Source of the DNA: Dermatophagoides farinae
Lineage: Eukaryota > Arthropoda > Arachnida > Sarcoptiformes > Pyroglyphidae
NCBI RefSeq assembly: GCF_024713945.1
Contig: NC_134684.1
Location: forward strand, 3,541,001 to 3,605,000
Direction of reading: 5' to 3'
DNA: 64,000 bases
Shown: in pieces, positions 20,379 to 25,462 of the stretch
How positions within the stretch are numbered: position 1 is the first letter of the stretch
How the letters are laid out: every line of letters begins with the position of its first letter
Notes under the pieces: generated by a model
The model's database searches: none
Told to the model about the DNA's origin: nothing
Seen by the model: only the letters and a program-made list of their open reading frames with translations
Position numbers and translations under genes: made by a program

Positions 20379-22064
20379 TCATAATACAACAAAATCTTCG
20401 GATGATAATAATTTCTGTACATTTCCATGGCGATCAACAAGTCTATATTCCATTCGTAATATTCGATCCATTGTTGTTGTTGTTGTTGATGATAATGGTT
20501 CATTCATTTGATTGTCAAATCGATTATTTGGAATCCAATGAATATATTGGATAACCATTACTTTTATATGAATGATCAATAATTTGTTGTGAAAAATTTA
20601 TAAATTCATCATAATCTTGTTTGGTTTTCAAATAGAAACCAATCGTACAGCTAGGATCGATTGATGTTAATGAAATTCGTTTTGGTGATATACAATGATA
20701 GCTATCCAATGGAAAATTTGTTCTTGTACCAACATCAATACTTTTTTGACAATAATGTGGATCAATAGCAAGTAATTTGTCATCTTGAAAGCCAATAAAA
20801 TATAATGAATGTCGTGGTTTACCACCGATTACACCCAAACATGAAGATAGTGATAATATTTGTTTAAAATATGGTGAATAAAATTTATTAAATTCATCAC
20901 CACCTAAACGTACAGGTATCAATATGATTATGCTACGCCATTGATTATTTCCATCATCATCATCGATGATTGTATTTGAATTTGAACGTATATTGACTGT
21001 CCGACATAAGTCGATGACGTCTTGTAGATAAACTGATGATGAAACAATAATTATAAAATTAAAAAAAATAGAGTTAAAAGTTGAGAGTATGAGTATGTTA
21101 CATACATACCAGTGCAATCCTGTGCAATATAACAACAAATATCGCATAATAATCGATTATCTTTGGCGGCATCTTCCAACAGGTTTTTCATTATGATCGA
21201 TATGGATGCCGGACCGAACCAATCACCTGGATTCTTACCAAACAACTGTTGTCCTTGTCTAATGATTTCATGTATAGAAAATGGACTTGTCGATCGATCA
21301 GGAATATCGGCAAACCATTTGATTATCATTCGATGTATGAGATCATCTTGTCCTTCCCATCGCCAATTTCGGCCATGAAAATGTGTAAGAAAAGCTTGCG
21401 CCATTATCATCTGACCGGAACGGATCATACAACCCCAACCATTATCTGTGGTAATCGGTGTTTGCAGTAAAGGAGGAAAATCACGTCGATATGTTAGCCA
21501 GATTCGACTATAGAAATCTTTTTTGAATTTATCATATGCATAGAGATTTGAACTTTGTTCATCCGATTGGCTAATCGAATCGGACATTTTACCATAGTAA
21601 AGTTGACCAAGAACACATATTGGTGAATTGAAATTGAATTTATTCCGAAATCGATGATTAAATTCTGAAAATCAAAATTGTTAATGAGCATTATGTTTAA
21701 ATTTACCATTGCATGAAAACTTGCCATATTTTACCGTATTCCACATTGAATAGAACGTCGATCTTGCTGTAGAGTTTGAGGAACCTTGGATCTGATGATG
21801 ATTACTAATCGATTCACAAGATCGATGATGATTTGAAACATTTAATGATGTGGCTGATGTCGATGATGATGAAGCGGTCGAGGATCGTTTTTTGGTTGTT
21901 GGATTGTAACGATTTTGATGTGGTTGTGGATTATAATGATGATGATGATGATGATGTTGATGATTATGGTGACCAAATCCGTTATTAAGATTATTTTTAT
22001 CTTCATTTTTTGCTTGCAGATATTGTTGTAATGTTAAAGTGCTACATCTTGTTTCTGTTGTCAT
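20379..22064 (-). CDS. Atg4: Autophagy cysteine protease, ATG4C/D type (frame broken once near the C-terminus)
   Basis: Cytosolic C54-family protease that cleaves and delipidates Atg8/GABARAP proteins. Three exons on the minus strand: 21707-22064, 21110-21664, 20379-21032, joined in phase 1 by introns of 42 and 77 bases. Residues 1-110 are a His/Ser/Asn-rich extension. The catalytic cysteine (about residue 198) lies in TTDNGWGCMIRSGQM; the Asp/His pair (about 395 and 397) lies in AIDPHYCQ after IGGKPRHSLYFIGFQDD. LTYRRDFPPL, VRLGG and DPSCTIGFY point to the ATG4C/D branch, not ATG4A/B. The C-terminus LLSSEDFVVL matches the family's acidic-aromatic tail, but it lies in a different frame from the catalytic domain: after NGYPIYSLDS the frame meets TAA at 20524-20526, and one surplus A would restore it. 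No GT-AG intron repairs this. Head-to-head with SREK1. Confidence 0.93.
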
Positions 22065-22460
22065 TGTTAATAAATGAAAATAAAATTTTTGATGATAGAA
22101 ATCGACAATCAGGTCATCTGGTTGTTGCTATTATTATTAACAAATTTATGACTCTATCAAATGATTCATTTTTTTTTGTTGTTCCGGATTTCAATGAATA
22201 AACAAAAAGATCCAAATAATTTTTTTTTTATCACAAAACCAGGATTTTTTTTTTTGCTTTTTTTACGATGTAAATAAAAAAAATTCGTTCATCACTATCG
22301 ATTATTTAAGACGATATTGTCGAGTTTCGGTGTGGGAACTGTGTGTGTGTGTGTGTGTGTGAGCTTTGATTGTTTTGTTCGGCCGAATTTTTTTTCTCTG
22401 GTAAAAATTGTTTTAATTCAATTCTGATTCTATTCAGTAATTATAAAATCACAACATAAA
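22065..22460. promoter_or_regulatory. Divergent promoter spacer between Atg4 and SREK1
   Basis: 396 bases separate the Atg4 start codon (minus) from the first copy of the SREK1 start codon (plus). The right half contains the left end of the duplicated SREK1 block and a (GT)n tract at about 22340-22361. No TATA box or initiator could be assigned. That it drives both genes is inferred from geometry. Confidence 0.45.
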
Positions 22461-22602
22461 ATGGGCCCTGGATCAACAACATCGGTGATTCAGGTGACCA
22501 ATGTGGCGCCGGTTATCACTAATGAACAACTACGAACATTATTCACCAATGTTGGCCCGATACGAGAATTTGTTTGTTATCCAACAAGGTAAGGTTGAAC
22601 AT
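22323..22602 (+). repeat. Segmental duplication, copy 1 (SREK1 5' flank, exon 1, intron start)
   Basis: This block is nearly identical to 23003-23284, offset by 680 to 681 bases. It contains AGTTTCGGTGTGGGAACTG, a (GT)n tract, the 5' leader, the 128-base first coding exon and the first bases of intron 1. The coding exon is identical in both copies by eye. The leader has only a few substitutions and length changes in T runs. Confidence 0.92.
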
Positions 22603-22738
22603 TTCTCAATGCCGCTGATATGATTCGAATTGCCATATTAACATATTTTTGGGATTTGTAAACTCGGACATTGTGTTGAAAACATTTGATGATGATGATG
22701 ATGATATGTAGTGATCCATCACAGCGAAAGGGTTAAAA
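22461..22738 (+). pseudogene. Duplicate SREK1 exon 1 with truncated exon 2
   Basis: A complete copy of SREK1 exon 1 (22461-22588) with an intact GTAAGG donor is followed by a 123-base intron and an AG acceptor at 22710-22711. After it come only 15 bases of exon 2 homology (TGATCCATCACAGC and one more base), then unrelated sequence. Splicing within this copy gives about 50 residues ending in SDPSQRKG and a TAA. That is a fragment of the first RRM and would not fold as a domain. Alternatively its donor could splice to the intact exon 2 at 23341, making the normal protein from an upstream promoter. Confidence 0.75.
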
Positions 22739-22760
22739 AGGGGGAGAGGTCAAAAATCAA

Positions 22761-22940
22761 AGTAGTGTACTATTCGATTTGGTAGTGTACTATTCGATTT
22801 GGTAGTGTGCACTATTTTGGTAGTGTACTATCGATTTTGGTAGTGTACTATTCGATTTGGTAGTGTACTATCGATTTTGGTAGTGTACTATCGATTTTGG
22901 TAGTGTACTATTTGACTTGGTAGTGTACTAGCTGATTTGG
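22761..22940 (+). repeat. 20-base minisatellite, about 9 units
   Basis: Tandem units of GGTAGTGTACTATTCGATTT with variants (ATTCGATTT, ATCGATTTT, ATTTGACTT, AGCTGATTT). One unit (22801-22818) is 18 bases. The array lies between the two SREK1 exon-1 copies, just after the truncated exon 2, and decays into non-repeat DNA near 22940-22975, where TAGTAGTGTAC reappears once. Nothing similar is seen elsewhere in the window. Confidence 0.92.
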
Positions 22941-23002
22941 TAGTTTCGCCACTCCACTACGATTTAGTAGTGTACACACAAGGCTATTTTTTTTTGTGTG
23001 TC

Positions 23003-23284
23003 AGTTTCGGTGTGGGAACTGTGTGTGTGTGTGTGTGTGTGAGCTTTGATTGTTTTGTTTGGCCGAATTTTTTTTTCTCTGGTAAAAATTGTTTTCATTC
23101 AATTCTGATTCTATTGAGTAATTATAAAATCACAACATAAAATGGGCCCTGGATCAACAACATCGGTGATTCAGGTGACCAATGTGGCGCCGGTTATCAC
23201 TAATGAACAACTACGAACATTATTCACCAATGTTGGCCCGATACGAGAATTTGTTTGTTATCCAACAAGGTAAGGTTGAACATT
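23003..23284 (+). repeat. Segmental duplication, copy 2 (functional SREK1 start)
   Basis: The right-hand copy of the block at 22323-22602. It carries the exon 1 that leads into the intact SREK1 gene. Homology ends in intron 1 after GGTTGAACATTTC and resumes at the (GAT)n-ATATGTAG acceptor: the same acceptor and 15 bases of exon 2 are present in both copies, while the intron interiors differ in length (123 versus 71 bases) and sequence. Confidence 0.92.
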
Positions 23285-25462
23285 TCATTTGTTCGATTAA
23301 TTAATCTAATATTGATGATGATGATGATGATGATATGTAGTGATCCATCACAGCAGATATCACGTGTATGCTATGTACGATTTGCCGATCCAATGAATGT
23401 ATGTGTAGCACAACATCTAACCAATACCGTATTCATTGATCGTGCGATTATGGTCAAGCCGGTTCATGATAATCGTATACCGGATGAAACATTGGCATTG
23501 AAATTAGCCAATGAAGGCCATCTTCAGAATAGCAGTAATAATGGCGTCGTTTCACAGGTAGTTTTTTTAAAATTATATCATCATTTTATCCATATCAAAC
23601 TATATTTTGTCATGTGTTTAATTACTAGATTGAAACCGTAAATGGCGTACAATCGATTACAACAATCGATCCTCGTCTAAATGCATTAGGCTTACCACAA
23701 TATCCACCATTATCGCCAAGTTTAGATCCTGCAAAGATAGAAGAAATTCGTCGTACGATTGTAGTTTCAAATGTTAACAAACAGGTAATTTTTCACTGTT
23801 TCATTTAAATCATCAATTAATTTTATAATCCAAAAGACAACTCCGGAACAATTATTGGAATTTTTCAATCAATTTGGTGAAGTTAAATATCTTCGTATGA
23901 CCACCGATGAAAATGATGTTATTAAATCGGCAATGATTGAATATACGGATCAATCATCGGTGGCAAATGCTTTACAAAATACTGGAATATCATTCCAAGG
24001 ATCTCAATTGAATCTTACACATACAACAACCAGTATACTCAAACCACAATATAAAATCAATGGTATTGGAAATAAAGTTTTTCAAAAAAAACTAGTTTGA
24101 CTTTTTTTTTTGATTATAGTTGATCCAAGTAAATTTCCGGAAACACGAGATCTGATGCCGAAACCAAAACGTTCACGATCAAGATCTATTGGACGAAGTC
24201 GTTCAAGTCGATCACCTAGCCGAAGTCGAAAAAGTAGCCGAAGATCGCGAACACCACCGAGCCATCGTTCACGTGATCGTAAACGTTCATCAATTTCACG
24301 TTCAAGATCACCGGTTCGTCGATCAAGTCGTCGTTCTCGATCACGTGAACGACGTGAACGTTCACCATATTCCTCATCATCACGACGTAGATCTTCACGT
24401 GATCGTTCATATTCACGGGAGCGAATACGTGGTAGTCGAAGAGAACGATCTAAAGAACGAGATCGTGATCGTCGTCGTTCAAGTCGAGATCGAAGCATGG
24501 AACGACGTCGAAGTTATGATCGTGAACGAGATCGAAGTAACCGAGATCGTGAACGTGAACGTTCTGAACGAGATCGTAAAAGACATGAACGTAGCCGAGA
24601 AGAAAAAGATTATGGCCATGAACGTGTTCATGGTCGAGTTGAAAGAGAACGACCAAAAAAACGGAGCCGTAGCCGAGAATCGGAACGAAATCGAGTACCA
24701 GAACGACGAGATCGGCGAAAAGATGGCGTTAGCGCTATGTCTAGTGGTCTTATCGAACGTCATGAACGCCATAATCGTTCACGGTCACGATCTGGATCTC
24801 GTATCAAAATAATGAAATCACCATTGACCGGTAATTGCCATGAGGAAGATGAAACAGCAATGATGATGATGATTAACAAGCATGAACATGAGGATAAATT
24901 AATGAATCGTGTAGAAAGTGATGATAATATGGATTTAGTTGATGATAATGATGATGATGGTCATTCCGATAATAATTCTCGTTCATCTTCACTACACACA
25001 AATAATGATGGACAACAAAAGGAACAGAAACGAATGACATTATTGAAAACGCCAGAACATGAAAAAATTGATGCCGATAGCGATGAGAATTTAGGCCGTG
25101 CCGATATGGACATGGATGATGATGATGATGAAAATGATAATATCCATGATAATAATAATCATCATCATAATGATGGTGGCGATGACGGAAATGGTCCATC
25201 ACCGCTGCCATCGATTAGTAAAAATAGTAGTAGAGAAGAATTTGCCACAACGGATAAGCATCGCCATCGACACCATCATCATCATCATCGTCGTACATCA
25301 CCAGTACCACCACCACCACCAACCCTTTCATCATCATCTCGTCATCGATCGTCATCATCATCTCAACATCATGTTAGTAGCAGCAGTAATAGTAGTCGAC
25401 ATTATAAAAAAATCAGTACTATGGGACATCATCGTTATGATTCTGATGATGATAAATATTGA
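23142..25462 (+). CDS. SREK1: Splicing regulatory SR-related protein with two RRMs
   Basis: Nuclear splicing regulator of the SREK1 (SRrp86/SFRS12) family, which modulates SR-protein-dependent splice-site choice. Five exons: 23142-23269, 23341-23557, 23629-23784, 23837-24062, 24120-25462, all GT-AG and frame-consistent, 689 residues. RRM1 (residues about 7-85) contains SVIQVTNVAP and RVCYVRFADP; AQHLTNTVFIDRA is a family hallmark. RRM2 (about 158-235) contains TIVVSNVNKQTTPEQLLEFF and GEVKYLRMTTDE. Residues about 250-480 form a long RS/RE/RD domain. The tail changes to Asp/Asn-rich, His-rich and Ser-rich runs (DDDD, HHHH), unlike vertebrate SREK1. The exon 4 donor (GTATTG at 24063) was chosen because it alone gives phase 1 into exon 5. 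The first exon is duplicated upstream. Confidence 0.93.

Follow-up and report, generated by a model that had tools for sequence, protein, structure and literature searches.

Two genes lie head to head at the locus, which is part of a 64-kb stretch of the Dermatophagoides farinae genome (C8:3541001-3605000; hereafter the window). A protein piece encoded in this genome scores higher against the solved structure of Der f 2 (241.4 bits) than against Der p 2 (at most 222.3 bits); another group-2-like piece had no match at 1e-5. On the minus strand, a neighbor with a likely ATG at 22064 carries a Peptidase_C54 domain in a downstream exon (E = 5.8e-49). On the plus strand, the exon model predicts a SREK1-like protein of 689 amino acids, including exon 1, with two stretches that match RRM_1 and an RS-rich tail encoded by exon 5, which is the domain layout of SREK1 (SFRS12). 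SREK1, which we take to be the appropriate name, agrees with these two RRMs and the RS-rich tail; a search with the N-terminal part of the protein found no match among solved structures at E values up to 1e-6. A scan of the window with Rfam models at gathering scores gave no hits.

The start of the SREK1-like gene is present twice. The first-pass annotation had described two near-identical blocks here, and our alignments bear this out: the left (22323-22605) and right (23003-23286) blocks both hold the leader, the ATG, the 128-nt exon 1, and its donor, at a start-to-start distance of 680 to 681 bp. A 280-bp query recovered the second copy at an E value of 8.8e-137, which excludes chance likeness. 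In the genome search (62,435,336 bases, 22 contigs), the block was listed at two places together with one 37-bp match, and a third copy was not among the matches listed. Exon 1 is identical in the two copies, as had been claimed (0 differences in 128 bases), and the first 17 nt of intron 1 are also alike (0/17), so that the blocks reach 22605 and 23286. The leaders differ by three substitutions (left/right: C/T at 22380/23060, A/C at 22415/23096, and C/G at 22435/23116) and one extra T on the right, over 138 and 139 bases. The left copy does retain the 3′ end of intron 1 with its acceptor; the stretch of exon 2 attached to it is 14 bases long instead of the 15 first reported, and its last C is common to the adjoining transposon sequence. 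No substitutions were found over the 38 bases of the intron 1 end and exon 2 start, where the left copy has one 3-base unit fewer. Overall, the copies differ by 3 substitutions in 321 aligned bases (~0.9%), all within the 138-base leader, and this comparison supports a recent partial duplication of the leader and exon 1.

Table 1. Parts of the duplicated gene start and its surroundings, from left to right (positions in the window)
Feature	Position	Strand	Remark
Likely start codon of the ATG4-type (Peptidase_C54) neighbor	22062..22064	-	Head to head with the SREK1-like gene; read from sequence
Native intergenic region feeding the left copy	22065-22322		Read from sequence
TC, native left flank of the presumed insertion site	22320..22321	+	Left half of the target-site duplication
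Extra G after the left TC	22322	+	May be an excision footprint
Left leader, copy a	22323..22460	+	Presumed 5′ UTR; compare 23003-23141
Exon 1a, coding, 128 nt	22461..22588	+	Identical to exon 1b
Donor and first 17 nt of intron 1, copy a	22589..22605	+	Final TC common to the transposon piece
Transposon piece A, 84 bp	22604..22687	+	Replaces the intron interior
3′ end of intron 1 with acceptor, copy a	22688..22711	+	TT at 22686-22687 common at the seam
Exon 2, first 14 nt	22712..22725	+	Cut-off copy
Transposon piece C, right terminal region	22726..23000	+	3′ terminus ...TTTTTTTTTGTGTG
20-bp subterminal repeat array (minisatellite)	22762-22944	+	Inside piece C
TC, directly 5′ of the right copy	23001..23002	+	Right half of the target-site duplication
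Right leader, copy b	23003..23141	+	Compare left leader
Exon 1b, coding	23142..23269	+	Contiguous with the remaining gene
Intron 1	23270..23340	+	Presumably original interior
Exons 2 to 5 of the SREK1-like gene	23341..25462	+	As modeled from sequence

Transposon sequence in the left intron and the spacer

The interiors of the two introns are unlike, as the first-pass annotation stated, but the left one is not a diverged intron: the genome search identified it as transposon sequence. The left intron interior and the spacer are two collinear pieces (A and C) of one dispersed DNA-transposon family of ~2 kb, with at least 13 other copies in the genome (repeat counts from this search are lower bounds). 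Positions 22601-22687 (98 to 99% identity) and 22725 to 23000-23002 (85 to 94%) both match at 12 shared places, where their order and orientation are preserved. Over its 84 positions, piece A shows no mismatch to 5 of these 12 copies and a single mismatch to 7. In the 12 copies, a stretch of 188 to 200 bases lies between A and C; this element sequence is absent at the SREK1 locus, like everything to the left of A.

Four copies measured end to end are 2009, 2027, 2217, and 2221 bp long. The element starts with CACAGAGAAAAAAGCA and finishes with GGCTA, a T run, and CTCTGTG or GTGTG, and repeats of the GTAGTGTAC type lie close to both ends. The right-end pattern was found at 13 places in the genome, including the SREK1 locus, while the exact 16-base left end occurs at 12 places, the SREK1 locus not among them. 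With up to three mismatches allowed, the left end is matched eight times in the window, always outside 22000-23600; a blastn comparison of the four full copies with 22000-23600 likewise matched only A, C, and the repeat array within C and did not find the left terminus. A more diverged relative of the family is present on C5.

The flanking dinucleotides are equal at 11 of the 13 dispersed copies, with ends set by eye, which agrees with a 2-bp target-site duplication (2 to 3 bp in CACTA elements). They are unequal at C5, and copy C2d, whose left end lies inside a CA repeat and was not fitted by the pattern, was left out of the scoring; the flanks at the SREK1 locus are TC and TC. Window composition gives an expectation of 0.087 equal flanks per pair, a value that understates chance agreement because the ends were set beforehand by eye and several flanks are CA/TG repeats. 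Frames longer than 94 amino acids are absent from the four full copies, so coding potential is poor, and five frames of the full copy C2a gave no family match above the cut-off. Judged by these sequence features, the family is apparently a nonautonomous DNA transposon with short terminal inverted repeats and subterminal tandem repeats.

Several family members (C2c, C2d, C3a, C3b, C8, and C4b) lie in or beside CA/TG microsatellites, and these insertions suggest a target preference. A GT run is likewise found in the SREK1 leader. Close to the 3′ end of the copy at C10:11900-14271, no more than ~60 bases away, lies a TTAGG telomere-like tract. On C7, a copy (638790-641011) ends 56 bases upstream of the ATG of a 489-amino-acid frame, which is RCC1/BTB-like by eye and open to the end of the fetched flank; the family may thus have landed in the 5′ region of another gene as well.

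Subterminal repeats are a trait of CACTA (En/Spm) elements. The 2-bp direct repeats at the ends are also shared with this group, for example with SmTRC1, for which they are reported in 7 of 14 copies (PMC1636069). In contrast, the ends of the mite family read CACAGAG, and a transposase frame was not found in its four full copies. Matches to Transposase_21, which is of the CACTA type, occur at three places in the genome, in frames of 926, 700, and 926 amino acids on C1, C9, and C5 (the third at C5:1079329-1079736). The copies on C1 (849-5713 of the fetched stretch) and C9 are ~99% alike, with ends CCCTGGTAGTGCG...CGCACTACCAGGG, and possibly represent a recently active DNA transposon. As the mobilizer of the family, these two elements were rejected: their termini are different, and none of eight terminal or subterminal family motifs occurs in either stretch. 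A transposase with ends that match those of the family was therefore not found in the comparison with the C1 and C9 elements.

Mosaic structure and origin of the block

From left to right, the block consists of native upstream sequence that ends in ATTGTC; one G; the leader, exon 1a, and 17 nt of intron; piece A; 22688-22725; piece C; TC; and then the leader, exon 1b, and the remaining gene. Adjoining segments share TC, TT, and C at the three internal seams, short overlaps such as template-switching repair leaves; overlaps of 1 to 2 bp are frequent by chance, however, and may be fortuitous at such a length. The right copy begins at the 3′ terminus of the transposon plus TC, an apparent 2-bp target-site duplication. 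The left copy begins, after the native TC and one G, with the same first base that follows TC on the right. The left copy looks like an empty (or excision-vacated) insertion site; random capture would be unlikely to start at this base. Read as a whole, the block looks like one promoter in two fused versions, the first free of the transposon and the second carrying it; in biological terms, two alleles, one without and one with the transposon, seem to have been joined. The copy difference of 3/321 is on the scale of the 0.52% heterozygosity reported for the D. farinae assembly (PMC11074847), in keeping with this reading.

The mosaic duplication is probably the product of a break at a transposon in the SREK1-like gene start, which was mended by synthesis that moved between templates. 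A family member would have inserted at the gene start, between TC (22320-22321) and AGTTTCGG, and a break would have followed at the insertion, most likely through excision. Repair synthesis would then have switched between a transposon-free version of the locus, with the homolog or the sister as a likely template, and transposon sequence, in an order of switches that we infer from the arrangement of the parts. The expected product is empty-site upstream sequence with the leader and exon 1, the 84-bp transposon patch, the last part of intron 1 followed by 14 nt of exon 2, the transposon's right end, and the original gene. We favor excision as the trigger because the left end of the element is missing and the left copy looks like an empty site. 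The single G is weak evidence for it, and the failure to find a transposase with matching ends among the C1 and C9 Transposase_21 elements speaks against it. The same product is reachable by other orders of events, and a study of Pack-TIRs found that breaks inside the element account better than excision for its single-copy cases (PMC8277862).

Two origins had been put forward in the first pass, duplication with gene conversion and a haplotype join. The recent duplication holds, but conversion is not needed: three substitutions all fall in the leader with a probability of (138/321)^3, or ~0.08, so that an exon 1 free of changes is compatible with chance at 3/321, and the difference between the introns is transposon DNA. 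That an assembler wrongly joined two haplotypes in tandem is very unlikely. The copy difference of ~0.9% (3/321) is near the heterozygosity of 0.52% reported for the D. farinae assembly GCA_024713945.1 (PMC11074847), and one copy looks transposon-free and the other transposon-bearing. However, assemblers join at long overlaps, and the copies join here over 1 bp between exon 2 and the transposon; patch A in the left intron adds two further seams; a third copy was not among the listed genome matches; and the mean subread length of 7442 bp in the same source exceeds the length of the block.

End-joining could also have linked two broken chromatids unequally, one lacking the transposon and cut in exon 2, the other bearing the transposon and cut within it, with patch A as a separate small event. 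The order of an empty and then an occupied allele fits such end-joining, as does the overlap of only 1 bp between exon 2 and the transposon, but piece A belongs to the same family as C, is collinear with it, and lies 38 bp before it, which would be a coincidence under two independent events; we regard this course as unlikely. Tandem duplications are common in general, and the near identity of A to other copies indicates that the family may have moved recently, so the duplication might have come first and a transposon might later have inserted between the copies and decayed. Against this order, the terminus of the transposon plus TC directly precedes the right copy, the left terminus is not recognizable at the locus, and the left intron also holds transposon DNA; we regard it as very unlikely.

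Template-switching repair at a transposon has counterparts among known systems. Gap filling with a nearby donor and short microhomology has been described for animal transposons in a study of Pack-TIRs (Tan et al. 2021, PMC8277862). The mite locus resembles Pack-TIRs in having a TIR transposon beside a duplicate of nearby host sequence, a parental copy within 5 kb (680 to 681 bp start to start here, as looked for in single-copy cases), and seam microhomology of 1 to 2 bp (median of 2 bp there). It is unlike them in that the duplicate joins native upstream sequence directly, the host piece does not lie between both transposon ends, and the duplicate includes a leader, the first exon, and parts of an intron. 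Membership among Pack-TIRs was rejected on the termini, the right one being present and the left one missing in the exact search, with up to three mismatches, and in blastn with four full copies.

The repair-mediated duplications of vertebrates, attributed to synthesis-dependent strand annealing (Pace et al. 2009, PMC2671141), are likewise short, closely linked duplicates that interrupt a transposon, with microhomology or filler at the seams and sometimes with copied exons and splice sites. The mite block has both microhomology (TC, TT, and C) and transposon filler, with the donor within 5 kb. Unlike those cases, it alternates host and transposon segments and copies the leader and first coding exon; pairs within 50 bp of each other were left out of the vertebrate study.

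Possible use of the two gene starts

Exon 1a could splice past the intervening DNA to exon 2, and exon 1b could start a transcript of its own; in translation, the protein starts identically whether exon 1a or exon 1b is joined to exon 2, and both routes would yield one and the same protein. In effect, the duplication is probably either redundant or a mild disturbance, since early stops would follow from the use of two candidate decoy acceptors, at 22711 and 23004. From the acceptor at 22711, exon 1a would read into the transposon and stop after ...PTSDPSQRKG. The sequence TTTTTTTTTGTGTGTCAG, which ends at 23004, resembles a 3′ splice site, and a join of exon 1a to exon 1b there gives an 87-amino-acid frame with a TAA (23138-23140) one base before the exon 1b ATG. 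Eleven of the 15 positions of TTTTTTTTTGTGTGTCAG are pyrimidines, compared with 6, 9, 9, and 13 for the four modeled acceptors of the gene itself; the window holds 1.2 sites with this pyrimidine content or more per kb of strand. The hexamer TCAGTT at 23001-23006 fits what we take to be the arthropod initiator motif and might act as one, and the extra G breaks its left counterpart; the two strands of the window together hold 28 copies of TCAGTT.

A maintained regulatory arrangement, with two promoters or a poison exon made through the transposon-derived acceptor at 23004, would be compatible with the other readings of the locus, and we think it quite unlikely. In its favor, the native upstream region, exon 1a, and the exon 1a donor are all present, and TTTTTTTTTGTGTGTCAG (11/15 pyrimidines) lies 5′ of exon 1b with an 87-amino-acid frame from the join of exons 1a and 1b; on the other hand, sites as pyrimidine rich appear 1.2 times per kb of strand, and the unchanged exon 1 is within chance. 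There is only a slender prospect that the poly-T tail of the transposon, the TC of the target site, and the AG of the gene together form a new 3′ splice site, which would make exon 1b internal in transcripts from the native promoter and create an upstream frame or a poison exon. If true, the gene start would be a transposon-made switch, through which a splicing factor could possibly regulate itself.

Duplications through repair at transposons are already known, and the mite case is unusual in that the leader and first coding exon were copied and in that the site seems to be kept in both its empty and its occupied form. In a search of titles and abstract starts of open-access literature on filler DNA, excision, CACTA, SREK1, and the D. 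farinae genome, this duplication locus was not mentioned. With break repair and template switching as its probable origin, the locus would be a legible record of the way in which a promoter-located cut-and-paste transposon can duplicate the leader and first coding exon of a gene that is itself unmoved, since the seemingly empty and occupied sites and the apparent switch points have all survived. The locus also shows that an apparent pattern of identical exons with divergent introns can result from transposon patching instead of gene conversion.
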